From assembly GCA_019753175.1 (NCBI GenBank), contig JAIELK010000005.1, forward strand, positions 1-64,000: DNA of 64,000 nucleotides. The letters run 5' to 3'. Origin of the DNA: Hyphomonadaceae bacterium. Lineage in GTDB: Bacteria > Pseudomonadota > Alphaproteobacteria > Caulobacterales > Aquidulcibacteraceae. A program made the position numbers and the translations under genes. Every line of letters starts with the position of its first letter. Positions within the stretch are counted from its first letter, which is position 1. Positions 37,167-51,352 of this stretch are shown piece by piece. The notes below the pieces were generated by a model. The model was not told the origin of the DNA. It ran no database searches and saw only the letters and a program-made list of their open reading frames with translations.

Positions 37167-37269
37167 CGTCATTCCGGACGCGCGGAGCGCGATCCGAAAC
37201 CCAGGGCGAACGCACCGCGCTTTACGATCCTGGGTTCCCGGTCCGGCCTGCGGCTGCCCCGGAATGACG
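37167..37269. repeat. Dispersed inverted repeat, 103-bp intergenic copy
   Basis: Ends are CGTCATTCCGG (37167-37177) and CCGGAATGACG (37259-37269), a perfect 11-bp inverted repeat. An inner pair AACCCAGG/CCTGGGTT makes a second stem. The same outer ends and inner stem occur at 45713-45816 inside the E2 gene; shorter forms are at 39060, 39797 and 50854. It has no coding capacity and behaves like a REP/MITE-type element. Confidence 0.85.
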
Positions 37270-39059: not shown

Positions 39060-39103
39060 CGTCATTCCGGACGCGCGAAGCGCCTGCGGCCACCCGGAAT
39101 GAC
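39060..39103. repeat. Dispersed inverted repeat, 44-bp copy
   Basis: CGTCATTCCGG at the left and CCGGAATGAC at the right enclose a short GC-rich centre (ACGCGCGAAGCGCCTGCGG). It is the short form of the family also seen at 50854-50891, placed in the promoter gap between the antitoxin and the PhyH gene. Confidence 0.85.
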
Positions 39104-39132
39104 AAGCAGTTCTACGGTTCCTTAACCGCCGA

Positions 39133-43398: not shown

Positions 43399-45477
43399 AT
43401 GAGCGCCAAAGCCAAACCCGCGCCACGTGCGCGCGTCGACGTCGACTGGACCCAGGTCACTCGGCTGGTCCACACCTCGCGCGCGATGGACGCGATCGAG
43501 GAAACCGAACTCGTCCCGGCCAAGAAGATCTTCTACCAATTCAGCGCACGCGGCCACGATATGGCGCAAGTGCTGCTCGGCTTGCAGCTGACCCACCCGA
43601 AGGACGCGCTTTGCGGCTATTATCGCTCGCGCCCGATCCTGCTGGCGCTCGGTGTTGGGCTTGAAGACGCACTGGGCTCGGCGATGGGCCGCGCCGGCGG
43701 CTATTCCGACGGCCGCGACATCGGCGTCGTGTTCAACTATCCGAACGCACACGGCGCTTCCGCGCTGCCGATGTGCGGCGGTGTCGGCGCTCAATACACG
43801 CCGACGGCCGGCTACGCGCAGGCGATCGACTATCACAAACGGGTTCTGCACAATCGCGCCTATGATGGCGCCATCGGCGTTGTGCTGGGCGGCGACGCAT
43901 CAGTGGCCACCAACGGCTTCTGGTCGGCGCTGACCATAGCGACCACGTTGAAGCTGCCAATGTTGTTCTACGTCGAAGACAACGGCTACGGCATCTCGAC
44001 ACCCGGCTGGCTACAAACGCCGGGATGCAACATCGCCACAAACCTGGCCAGCTTCTCCGGCCTCAAGATCTTGGACGGCGACGGCACGGCGCCGGAAGAA
44101 GCCGCATACCTCACGCGCGAGGCGGTCTCGCATGTGCGCGCGGGACGTGGACCATGCCTGCTGCGGCTCTCGGTGCCACGCCTGCAGGGCCATTCGTTCC
44201 AGGATACACAAGCCTACAAGAGCGACGACGAAAAGGCGGCTGAATGGGCGCGCGACCCGCTGCCGAAGCTCAAAGCCCATGCCGTGCCAGCTTTCATGAG
44301 CGAACATGATTGGGCGGCGTCAGAAACGGAGGCGAAGCAACGCGTGGAGCGCGCCGCCCGCATCGCCGACCAGCGCCCGGTCAGCGACCCGGCGCAGGTC
44401 ACACGCTACGTGTTCAGCGAAGACGGCATGCTGCAGGACGAAGGCGGGCTCTGGAACACGGGGTACTCCCCTGCGCCGATGACGGACGTCGCCAAGCCCG
44501 AAGGCGCGCGCATCAACATGATCACCGCCATCCGCCGCACGCTCGACCATGAACTCGCCGTCAATCCGCGTGTGTTGATTTTTGGCGAAGACGTCGGCCC
44601 CAAGGGCGGCGTGCATGGCGTGACGCTCGGTTTGCAGGAGAAGTACGGCGCTGAGCGCGTCTTCGACACGTCGCTGTCGGAAGAGGGCATTATCGGCCGC
44701 GCCGTGGGCATGGCGATCGCGGGACTGATGCCGGTTCCGGAAATCCAGTTCCGCAAATACGCCGATCCCGCCTGCGAACAGATCAATGATTGCGGCACCA
44801 TGCGCTGGCGCACCGCCAATCGCTTCGCTGCGCCGATGGTGGTGCGCATGCCGGTGGGCTTCTTCAAATGCGGCGACCCCTGGCACTCCATGACCAACGA
44901 AGTGCAATTCGTGCACGCGCCCGGCTGGCGCGTCGCCTGTCCGAGCAACGCAGAGGATGCGGTGGGCCTCCTGCGCACGGCGCTGCGCGGCAACGATCCG
45001 GTGATGTTCCTTGAGCACCGCAACATGCTGGACGCCGCCAGCGCGCGCCGGCCCTATCCGGGCGACGATTTCGCGCTGCAATTCGGCAAGGCGCGGCGCG
45101 TGCGCGAAGGCGGCGACATCACGCTCGTCGCCTGGGGCGCAATGGTCGAGCGCTGCGAAGCGGCGGCGGAGAAAAGCGGCGCCAGTTGCGACGTGATCGA
45201 TCTGCGCACGCTCTTGCCGTGGGATCGCGAGACGGTGCTTCAATCGGTGGAGCGCACACATCGCTGCCTGATCGTGCACGAAGACCTGATCACCGCCGGT
45301 TTTGGCGCAGAGATAGCCGCCGTCATCGCCGATGAAGCCTTCCTCGATCTTGACGCGCCGGTTGCGCGCATCGCGATGCCGGACATTCCCTCGCCGCACC
45401 ATCCAGAATTGATGGAGTGGGCGCTGCCTTCTGTAGAACGCATCGCGGCGAAGATCGAAGAGCTGGTGCGCTTCTGA
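43399..45477 (+). CDS. Branched-chain 2-oxoacid dehydrogenase E1, alpha-beta fusion
   Basis: A 692-aa protein combining both E1 subunits. The alpha part (about 1-330) has the family YYRSRPILLALGVGLEDAL and the thiamine-diphosphate motif GGDASVATNGFWSALTIA...VEDNGYG. The beta part (about 360-692) begins INMITAIRRTLDHELAVNPR and has FGEDVGPKGGVHGVTLGLQE, and ends near VARIAMPDIPSPHHP. It decarboxylates the 2-oxoacids of Val, Leu and Ile. The stop overlaps the E2 start (TGATG). The E3 subunit is not in this window. Confidence 0.93.
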   Translation: MSAKAKPAPRARVDVDWTQVTRLVHTSRAMDAIEETELVPAKKIFYQFSARGHDMAQVLLGLQLTHPKDALCGYYRSRPILLALGVGLEDALGSAMGRAGGYSDGRDIGVVFNYPNAHGASALPMCGGVGAQYTPTAGYAQAIDYHKRVLHNRAYDGAIGVVLGGDASVATNGFWSALTIATTLKLPMLFYVEDNGYGISTPGWLQTPGCNIATNLASFSGLKILDGDGTAPEEAAYLTREAVSHVRAGRGPCLLRLSVPRLQGHSFQDTQAYKSDDEKAAEWARDPLPKLKAHAVPAFMSEHDWAASETEAKQRVERAARIADQRPVSDPAQVTRYVFSEDGMLQDEGGLWNTGYSPAPMTDVAKPEGARINMITAIRRTLDHELAVNPRVLIFGEDVGPKGGVHGVTLGLQEKYGAERVFDTSLSEEGIIGRAVGMAIAGLMPVPEIQFRKYADPACEQINDCGTMRWRTANRFAAPMVVRMPVGFFKCGDPWHSMTNEVQFVHAPGWRVACPSNAEDAVGLLRTALRGNDPVMFLEHRNMLDAASARRPYPGDDFALQFGKARRVREGGDITLVAWGAMVERCEAAAEKSGASCDVIDLRTLLPWDRETVLQSVERTHRCLIVHEDLITAGFGAEIAAVIADEAFLDLDAPVARIAMPDIPSPHHPELMEWALPSVERIAAKIEELVRF

Positions 45478-46688
45478 TGGCCGACACGCAAAACATCCTG
45501 ATGCCGCTAGAGCAGGAAGGCTCGAAATCCGTTGTGCGTGCGTGGCTGAAGCAGATTGGCGACAGCGTGGAACGCGACGAGCCGATTGTCGAACTCGAGA
45601 CCGACAAAGTCGCGGTCGAAGTGCCGTCGCCCTGCGACGGCGTGTTGGAAAGCATCACGCTCGGCGAAGGTGATGAGGCGGCGCCCGGGGCGGTTCTGGG
45701 AGTGATCTCCACCGTCATTCCGGGGCTCGCGGAGCGAGAACCCGGAACCCAGGGGACCATCAAACACGGCGTTGGCCCCTGGGTCCCGGATCGCGCTGCG
45801 CGCGTCCGGGATGACGACGTTGAATTAACAAGCGAGCAGCGTTTGTCCCCGCTGGTGAAGCGCCTCGTTTCCGAACACAAGCTCGACATCTCTCGCATCG
45901 CCGGCAGCGGCCGCGACGGACGCGTGACGCACAAGGATGTGGAAGCGTTTGTCGCGACGCTCAAATCTTCCCCCTTGAACAGGGGAGGAATGACCATCCC
46001 CCACGACGCCATGCGCCGCTCGATCGCCGAGCACATGGCGCGCTCGGTTGCGACCGCACCCCACGTCACCGCGGTGTTCGAGGCCGATTTCAGCGCCGTT
46101 ACTGCGCATCGCGCGCGGCACAAAGAGAGCTACGCCAAGGCCGGCGTCGCGCTCACCTACTCGGCTTACATTGTCGCCGCTGCGGCGGAGGCGATGAAAG
46201 TGTCGCCTAATGTCAACGCGCGCTGGCATGACGATTTTCTTGAAGTGTTTGACGACGCCAACATCGGCATCGGCGTCGCGCTTGGCGATAAGGGGCTTAT
46301 CGTTCCCGTGATCCGGCGTGCGCAGACGCTCTCAGTGCGCGAAATCGCTTCACAACTGACCGATCTCACCGAGCGCGCACGCAAGAACCAACTCAAGCCT
46401 GCCGACGTTCAGGGTGGCACGTTCACGATCTCCAATCACGGCGTGTCCGGATCACTGGTGGCGACGCCGATCATCATCAACCAGCCGCAATCGGCAATCC
46501 TCGGAATCGGCAAACTCGAAAAGCGCGTGATCGTTCGCGAAGTCGACGGCGTCGATGCGATCCTGATCCGCCCGATGGCGTATGTTTCGCTCACCATCGA
46601 TCATCGCGTGCTGGACGGACATCAAACCAACGCGTGGCTGACACGGTTCGTCGACGTGCTCGAAACCTGGCCGCTGGAGGACAAGTGA
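45477..46688 (+). CDS. Dihydrolipoamide acyltransferase (E2) of the 2-oxoacid dehydrogenase complex
   Basis: A 403-aa protein. The lipoyl domain (1-78) has the lipoylated Lys44 in ELETDKVAVEV; a peripheral subunit-binding domain (RLSPLVKRLVSEHKLDISRI) follows, then the catalytic domain with DHRVLDGHQTN near the end. Between the first two domains, residues ~79-114 are encoded by an in-frame copy of a dispersed inverted repeat, so the linker is foreign. A second small hairpin lies at 45966-45991 (SSPLNRGG). The gene starts at ATG 45477 by TGATG overlap with E1. Confidence 0.92.
   Translation: MADTQNILMPLEQEGSKSVVRAWLKQIGDSVERDEPIVELETDKVAVEVPSPCDGVLESITLGEGDEAAPGAVLGVISTVIPGLAEREPGTQGTIKHGVGPWVPDRAARVRDDDVELTSEQRLSPLVKRLVSEHKLDISRIAGSGRDGRVTHKDVEAFVATLKSSPLNRGGMTIPHDAMRRSIAEHMARSVATAPHVTAVFEADFSAVTAHRARHKESYAKAGVALTYSAYIVAAAAEAMKVSPNVNARWHDDFLEVFDDANIGIGVALGDKGLIVPVIRRAQTLSVREIASQLTDLTERARKNQLKPADVQGGTFTISNHGVSGSLVATPIIINQPQSAILGIGKLEKRVIVREVDGVDAILIRPMAYVSLTIDHRVLDGHQTNAWLTRFVDVLETWPLEDK
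45713..45816. repeat. Dispersed inverted repeat inserted in frame within the E2 gene
   Basis: The ends CGTCATTCCGG and CCGGGATGACG (one mismatch) and the inner stem ACCCAGGGG/CCCCTGGGT have the same architecture as the intergenic copy at 37167-37269 and a similar length (104 bp). The reading frame passes through uninterrupted, giving a ~35-residue linker (VIPGLAEREPGTQGTIKHGV and on) between lipoyl and subunit-binding domains. Confidence 0.85.
45966..45991. repeat. Small hairpin of REP type in the E2 gene
   Basis: CTTCCCCCTTGAACAGGGGAG reads as TCCCC, an 8-bp loop, then GGGGA, and encodes SSPLNRGG just before the catalytic domain. Similar TCCCC...GGGGA hairpins are common intergenic elements in related genomes. 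It may be a second insertion in the same linker-rich gene, but it is short and could be chance. Confidence 0.4.
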
Positions 46689-50840: not shown

Positions 50841-51352
50841 CGAACAAGACAATCGTCATTCCGGACGCGCGAAGCGCGATCCGAAATGACGAAACAGAAA
50901 CGATCGCGGAGATTCTCGCCTCCATCCCCGATCCCGAAATCCCCGCCGTCTCGGTGATCGATCTCGGCATCGTGCGCACGATCGAAGCGGAGTGCGTGGT
51001 GATCACGCCGACCTACACCGGTTGCCCGGCTACGCTCGCCATCGAGCGGGCGATCCGCGCCGCACTCGACGCCAACGGCTTCACACATGTGCGCCTTGAG
51101 ACAACGCTTGCACCACCCTGGTCAACCGACTGGATCACCGACGAAGGCCGCGAGAAACTGCGCGCTTACGGCATCGCCCCCCCTCCCAAAGGCGCCGACG
51201 CAGCTGCTCTCCGCAACGAAACCCGCCCGCAGTGCCCACGCTGCGGCTCGCTCAATACCGAGGAAGTCTCGCGCTTCGGTTCAACGCCCTGCAAGGCGCT
51301 GTGGCGATGCAACGCTTGCGCCGAACCTTTCGATCGCTTCAAGTGCCATTGA
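50837..51352 (+). CDS. paaD: Phenylacetate degradation protein D (PaaD, SufT/MIP18-type)
   Basis: A 171-aa protein from GTG 50837 (GTGA overlap). The DUF59 core is SIPDPEIPAVSVIDLGIVRT, then TPTYTGCPATLAIE; the C-terminus has four cysteines in CPRCGS...CKALWRCNACAEPF. It helps mature the Fe-S or di-iron centre of the epoxidase. Residues 6-18 (VIPDARSAIRND) come from an inserted dispersed repeat, so the N-terminus is longer than the family norm. Confidence 0.93.
   Translation: MTNKTIVIPDARSAIRNDETETIAEILASIPDPEIPAVSVIDLGIVRTIEAECVVITPTYTGCPATLAIERAIRAALDANGFTHVRLETTLAPPWSTDWITDEGREKLRAYGIAPPPKGADAAALRNETRPQCPRCGSLNTEEVSRFGSTPCKALWRCNACAEPFDRFKCH
50854..50891. repeat. Dispersed inverted repeat within the start of paaD
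   Basis: CGTCATTCCGG then a 16-bp centre then CCGAAATGACG (one mismatch), 38 bp, entirely inside the first codons of paaD. The frame is open through it and encodes VIPDARSAIRND. Confidence 0.85.

Follow-up and report, generated by a model that had tools for sequence, protein, structure and literature searches.

In an E2 acyltransferase, the linker that runs from the lipoyl to the E3-binding domain seems to have been rebuilt repeatedly from selfish DNA, since relatives of the host hold different, unrelated palindromes in this same linker. In the window, as we call the whole 64,000-nucleotide stretch of DNA analysed here, most of the linker is encoded by a head-to-head dimer of CGTC-like REP units. 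Probably, this dimer integrated in frame into a disordered and tolerant segment that has been repeatedly colonised and turned over, a history that would not require any function of the insert.

A REP dimer lies in frame within the E2 linker

The E2 gene and the parts of the element are arranged as follows.

45477..46688, + strand: E2 2-oxoacid dehydrogenase acyltransferase, 403 residues, directly after the E1 gene
45501..45707, + strand: lipoyl domain PF00364, residues 9-77 (Pfam)
45713..45816, + strand: CGTC-tagged REP head-to-head dimer (type A), E2 residues 79-114 in frame; top match of model R1, which this copy helped build
45713..45752, + strand: left REP unit with CGTC tag, TTCCGGG/CCCGGAA stem, inner CTCGC-GGA-GCGAG hairpin and CCCAG tail (sequence and 12-copy alignment)
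45753..45778, + strand: variable spacer of 26 nt separating the two REP units (alignment of copies)
45779..45816, - strand: right REP unit, inverted, reading CGTCATCCCGGACGCGCGCAGCGCGATCCGGGACCCAG on the minus strand (sequence and 12-copy alignment)
45843..45944, + strand: E3-binding domain PF02817, residues 123-156 (Pfam)

A sequence-only reading of this DNA had placed a 104-bp element at exactly these coordinates, between the lipoyl and subunit-binding domains and with the frame open. Both points hold: the reading frame continues across the element, and Pfam finds the lipoyl, E3-binding and catalytic domains (the last at residues 173-397) intact around residues 79-114, the predicted translation of the insert. 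The element provides about 35 of the 46 linker residues. In an AlphaFold2 model of E2 built on 30 orthologs, pLDDT falls below 50 at residues 83-119, almost coincident with the insert, against mostly 80-95 in the domains, and disorder is predicted for the linker. The neighbouring E1 gene, at 43399-45477, is a single ORF of 692 residues, apparently with fused alpha and beta subunits, and its stop overlaps the E2 start.

The element, 104 bp long, starts with CGTCATTCCGG and ends with CCGGGATGACG, with CGTC at both outer ends. Its predicted DNA fold reaches -40.6 kcal/mol versus -23.3 for dinucleotide shuffles (z -5.9), and the same z of -5.9 is obtained for the RNA with its flanks. The two halves are unlike each other, and it is the minus strand of an intergenic copy at 37167-37269 that agrees with the E2 copy when both are oriented alike. 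These two copies had been credited with the same ends and inner stem; ends and layout are indeed shared, except that the right end of the E2 copy carries one mismatch (CGTCATCCCGG). The stem starts ATTCCGGG, with pairing from the second position in the consensus fold and 7 bp in the left unit, and an unpaired CCCAG tail, of the CCA type, follows the stem in nearly all aligned copies. Between the stem arms lies a loop of about 20 alignment columns, with a variable inner hairpin, instead of 4-5 nt. A few compensatory changes are observed at the stem positions of the family in the consensus fold, the inner hairpin included.

Inspection by eye of the regions flanking the copies revealed no target-site duplication, the ortholog comparison showed no empty insertion site for the E2 element, and neither Rfam nor the phage collection gave a match. 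The idea that the element is specially free of stops is unsupported, as 51% of its readings are open versus 46% after shuffling.

The CGTC family is repeated across the host genome

CGTCATTCCGG occurs 31 times in the genome, versus 0 for the reversed pattern. Pattern matches, pooled with those of a covariance model trained on 12 copies, amount to about 22 places ending in CGTC or TGTC, mostly dimers, and about 10 further places having a related CCCATTCCCGG-like end. Other copies in the window are the following.

37167..37269, - strand: intergenic copy of the same dimer family, sharing ends and layout with the E2 copy
39060..39104, + strand: single or shortened CGTC REP
50854..50891, + strand: single CGTC REP, intergenic

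This search bears out the earlier view of the element as a repeated inverted repeat. As called heuristically from open frames and codon scores in the stretches around the copies, the E2 copy, in frame, is the only in-gene one among the roughly 22. Judged from translations, the other CGTC candidate, C1:206918, lies before the start codon and was rejected. Further apparent in-gene elements were set aside in the same way, C10:111023 and L227 being upstream of start codons and L210 and L242 seeming to fall in antisense ORFs. The host genome has three Y1_Tnp genes, and no listed CGTC copy is near any of them. A Y1_Tnp (RAYT-like) match at G000:C8:69690-70004 probably corresponds to a decayed gene, since it holds a TAG stop.

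Two observations concern the related CCCATTCCCGG type. Three such elements are found inside 750 bases at G000:C7:57506-58251. Another, a palindrome of the form CCCATTCCCGGGGC...CCGGGAATGGG, is found in frame within prmA, the gene of the ribosomal protein L11 methyltransferase (L163, G000:C16:19330-19474), just before the methyltransferase core.

Relation to known palindromic elements

CGTC-tagged REPs are a published superfamily, found mainly in Alphaproteobacteria, mostly as head-to-head dimers and without dedicated transposase (Di Nocera et al. 2013, PMC3733652). Several free-living bacteria have been reported to hold CGTC and GTAG REPs in frame within genes (PMC3733652). The present family shares the CGTC tag, the A/T stem start, the CCA-type tail, the repeated, mostly intergenic head-to-head dimers, the alphaproteobacterial host, the occurrence of some copies in frame in genes and the lack of a flanking transposase, here as regards Y1_Tnp genes. 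It differs by its larger loop with an inner variable hairpin, although loops of other length than 4-5 nt have been reported in some CGTC families (PMC3733652). Since the loop departs from this one defining measure, we name the element a CGTC-like REP; to judge by sequence, it is not a member of the four families listed in PMC3733652. A further difference is that several families have repeatedly entered one homologous linker, a situation absent from the text of that study. In the open-access literature, no earlier report of REP or palindromic elements in E2 or its linkers was found; the main text of PMC3733652 names no E2 gene, though its supplementary intragenic lists may.

The sequence-only reading had drawn a parallel with the Rickettsia palindromic elements while assigning the insert to a different sequence family. 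The parallel is supported. The distinction of families is not, because the CGTC superfamily includes RPE-4 and RPE-6 (PMC3733652). These two, like the longer RPE-1, are palindromic repeats found in frame in proteins. On the other hand, the present host does not belong to an intracellular parasite lineage, and one gene is struck repeatedly across species here, whereas many genes are struck within one genus there. Inverted repeats within protein-coding genes are also described in Nematomorpha mitochondria (PMC6649704), but those are longer, perfect and mitochondrial, and the abstract names no mobile family.

Congeneric species carry unrelated palindromes in the same linker

Going beyond the earlier reading, comparison of E2 orthologs from 27 congeneric species (L078 and L134 being placed in the group from the tree) revealed other, often unrelated elements in the same linker. 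A palindromic repeat, always in frame, is present in 22 species and absent from five. Nine carriers have type A, the CGTC dimer; nine have type B, composed of GGACCGCCGGCTTCCAGCCGGC and its inverted copy; and four have type C, composed of GGACCGCCGGCGNCCTCGCCGGC and its inverted copy. Median inverted-repeat scores are 10, 19 and 26 for types A, B and C, versus 6 in the five non-carriers. By the same score, no linker palindrome was detected in 18 Rhizobiales/Paracoccus orthologs (median 6, maximum 9). Since these and other alphaproteobacterial orthologs lack the insert, a native linker peptide, which would have undone the earlier reading, does not explain it. The E2 ortholog L056 (G014:C5) is split over three frames in its assembly, through either sequencing error or pseudogene formation.

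In a tree built from the E1 and E2 cores with linkers excluded, where many deeper nodes are weakly supported, close relatives differ in kind. Indeed, L061 (type A) is sister of L068 (type B) and L072 (type A) is sister of L078 (type C), both with bootstrap 100. A Fitch count gives 14 state changes on the best tree, and 60 of 1000 label shuffles do as well. At a safe minimum, the genus would have received about three to four separate insertions: one each of A, B and C, plus another of A if its two orientations arose as independent events rather than by in-place inversion.

Type A is oriented one way in three species and the other way in six, with the same reading phase in all nine; in six of the nine, and in both orientations, it ends 14 nt before the RLSP codon. 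The type B elements also have a common phase (9/9); six have a length of 85, from which the rest differ by multiples of three, and six start at the same offset. On the right side, A and B have boundaries no more than about 4 nt apart, beside a flank encoding DGREM in several carriers of both, whereas left boundaries spread over 11-32 nt. Mean linker length is 34-46 residues in carriers versus 39 in non-carriers. Finally, the host E2 copy is slightly nearer to copies of its own genome (best match 0.87) than to the E2 copies of congeners (best 0.84).

Types B and C resemble RAYT-associated REPs

Types B and C are repeated genus-wide, with 0 matches for the reversed control, and they flank Y1_Tnp genes in three genomes (G001:C33, G003:C208 and G012:C403), so that, from their sequence context, both look like RAYT-mobilised REPs. 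They share short hairpins, head-to-head pairs and adjoining Y1_Tnp genes with RAYT-associated REPs, differing by GGACC instead of GTAG ends; they occur in frame in the E2 of congeners and not in the gene of the window. Since an outer part, GGACCGCCGGC, is common to both, B and C may be related families. Among the sampled elements, 23 of type B in G018 and 20 of type C in G020, similarly heuristic gene calls yield one convincing in-gene copy, in the E2 of G018; as G000 and G018 were picked knowing that E2 carried a copy, such in-gene rates illustrate enrichment rather than test it.

The type B arms in E2 are about 92% identical, with 89% at third positions, versus 60% at four-fold sites of the same genes and about 60% in the spacers. 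Most differences between arms are unpaired and not compensatory. This conservation could reflect elements that re-inserted recently, conversion by copies elsewhere or a hairpin under selection. The conversion explanation is weakened by G008, where the E2 dimer is perfect and is the sole type B copy at up to one mismatch. In the E2 of L069, L070, L052 and others, the type B arms are about 90% identical, third codon positions included, between species with 60% identity at four-fold sites.

Palindromes in other lineages and in other linkers

Strong inverted repeats of further kinds occupy the same linker in 14 more distant orthologs, mostly from Sphingomonadales. They comprise a canonical CGTC REP (L102), a CCCCGGC...GCCGGGGCCCAG type, a CTGAGC...GTCGAAG type and the single cases L105 and L110. 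Among the orthologs whose arms were counted in their own genomes, the arm of L102 has about 190 matches, those of the CCCCGGC...GCCGGGGCCCAG type 11-90 (L121, L130, L125 and L137) and those of the CTGAGC...GTCGAAG type 150 in L106 and 30 in L119; L135, with only 7 matches, is a weaker case.

The linker had also been described as the one place in E2 where an insertion is harmless, which proved too narrow: the second linker, between the E3-binding and catalytic domains, carries palindromes in L063, L070, L071, L072, L052, L053 and L078, of type C in three species and of a TCTTCCCCCG...GGGGGAGGTGGC mosaic kind in others. The SucB linker is also long and Ala/Pro-rich; none of the 16 congeners in which it was readable has such an insert there. 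Repeat-like peptides (SSPASGGGG...RDSSPVNGGA) are found, unlike in SucB, in the linkers of the branched-chain-type and pyruvate-type E2 of congeners (L271, L273, L275, L277, L278 and L281, L286, L287), with a possible type B relic in L271.

Origin of the linker inserts

The course of events that we consider probable starts with a non-autonomous CGTC REP dimer, which would have inserted in frame into the disordered linker. REP elements would insert in many places, types B and C presumably being moved by the RAYT transposases that they flank, and most in-gene insertions would be harmful and lost. The linker could tolerate some 20-37 residues of almost any sequence; with this tolerance and the loss of other in-gene insertions, surviving copies would therefore pile up there and turn over by decay, deletion and new insertion. 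Tolerance and abundance are most likely enough for most observations. Nevertheless, three facts resist simple tolerance. Pure tolerance predicts scattered positions, yet boundaries are alike among type A and among type B elements, as could follow from shared ancestry or from an insertion preference. Since linkers of carriers and non-carriers are nearly equal in length, insertion must replace rather than lengthen the linker, or the non-carriers are decayed carriers. The type B arms, compared with four-fold sites, are too conserved for old neutral copies. The insert-free SucB linker also speaks against a tolerance account.

Shared ancestry, in the form of a single ancient insertion, probably of type B, inherited genus-wide and followed by decay and few replacements with little recurrent colonisation, would explain the common phase, lengths and start offset of type B, and by eye the non-carrier linkers could be decayed copies. 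We regard it as unlikely, however, because type A is unrelated in sequence to B and C and exists in both orientations, well-supported sister species differ in kind, other lineages hold still other families and the host copy is slightly nearer to copies of its own genome. An insertion preference, making the linker DNA a true hot spot for the transposition machinery, would fit the nearly coincident right boundaries of A and B beside the DGREM-encoding flank. It seems unlikely given the spread of left boundaries and the strikes in other lineages with different flanks; moreover, the preference would have to be common to mobilisation systems that are unrelated, RAYT in the case of B and C and none known for CGTC.

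Alternatively, the palindrome could be kept for a function, for instance as an mRNA hairpin at which the ribosome slows after the lipoyl and before the E3-binding domain, or as a structure in the DNA, the kinds being interchangeable. The strong mRNA structure, the conservation of type B arms and their third positions and the perfect dimer retained in G008 are consistent with such a role, but a palindrome is absent from five congeners and from each of the 18 Rhizobiales/Paracoccus orthologs and the arm differences are mostly not compensatory, so we give this explanation little weight. It seems similarly improbable that the linker is a dedicated or selected landing site, where palindromes of any family would be captured and then kept at the nucleotide level for a hairpin role in translation or DNA replication. 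As for a chance product of GC-rich Ala/Pro/Gly linker codons, the linkers are compositionally biased, but codon shuffles rarely reach the observed score, Rhizobiales linkers show no palindrome and the same sequences recur across genomes; this origin was rejected and has a negligible probability.

In-frame REPs were already known, but they look like scattered accidents. Here, palindromes of several unrelated families have come to fill a single homologous linker in separate lineages, and the many congeneric species serve as natural replicates. With this system one can test to what extent selfish DNA contributes new protein sequence, how little sequence is required of a swinging-arm linker, and whether coding-region hairpins are put to use or simply tolerated.
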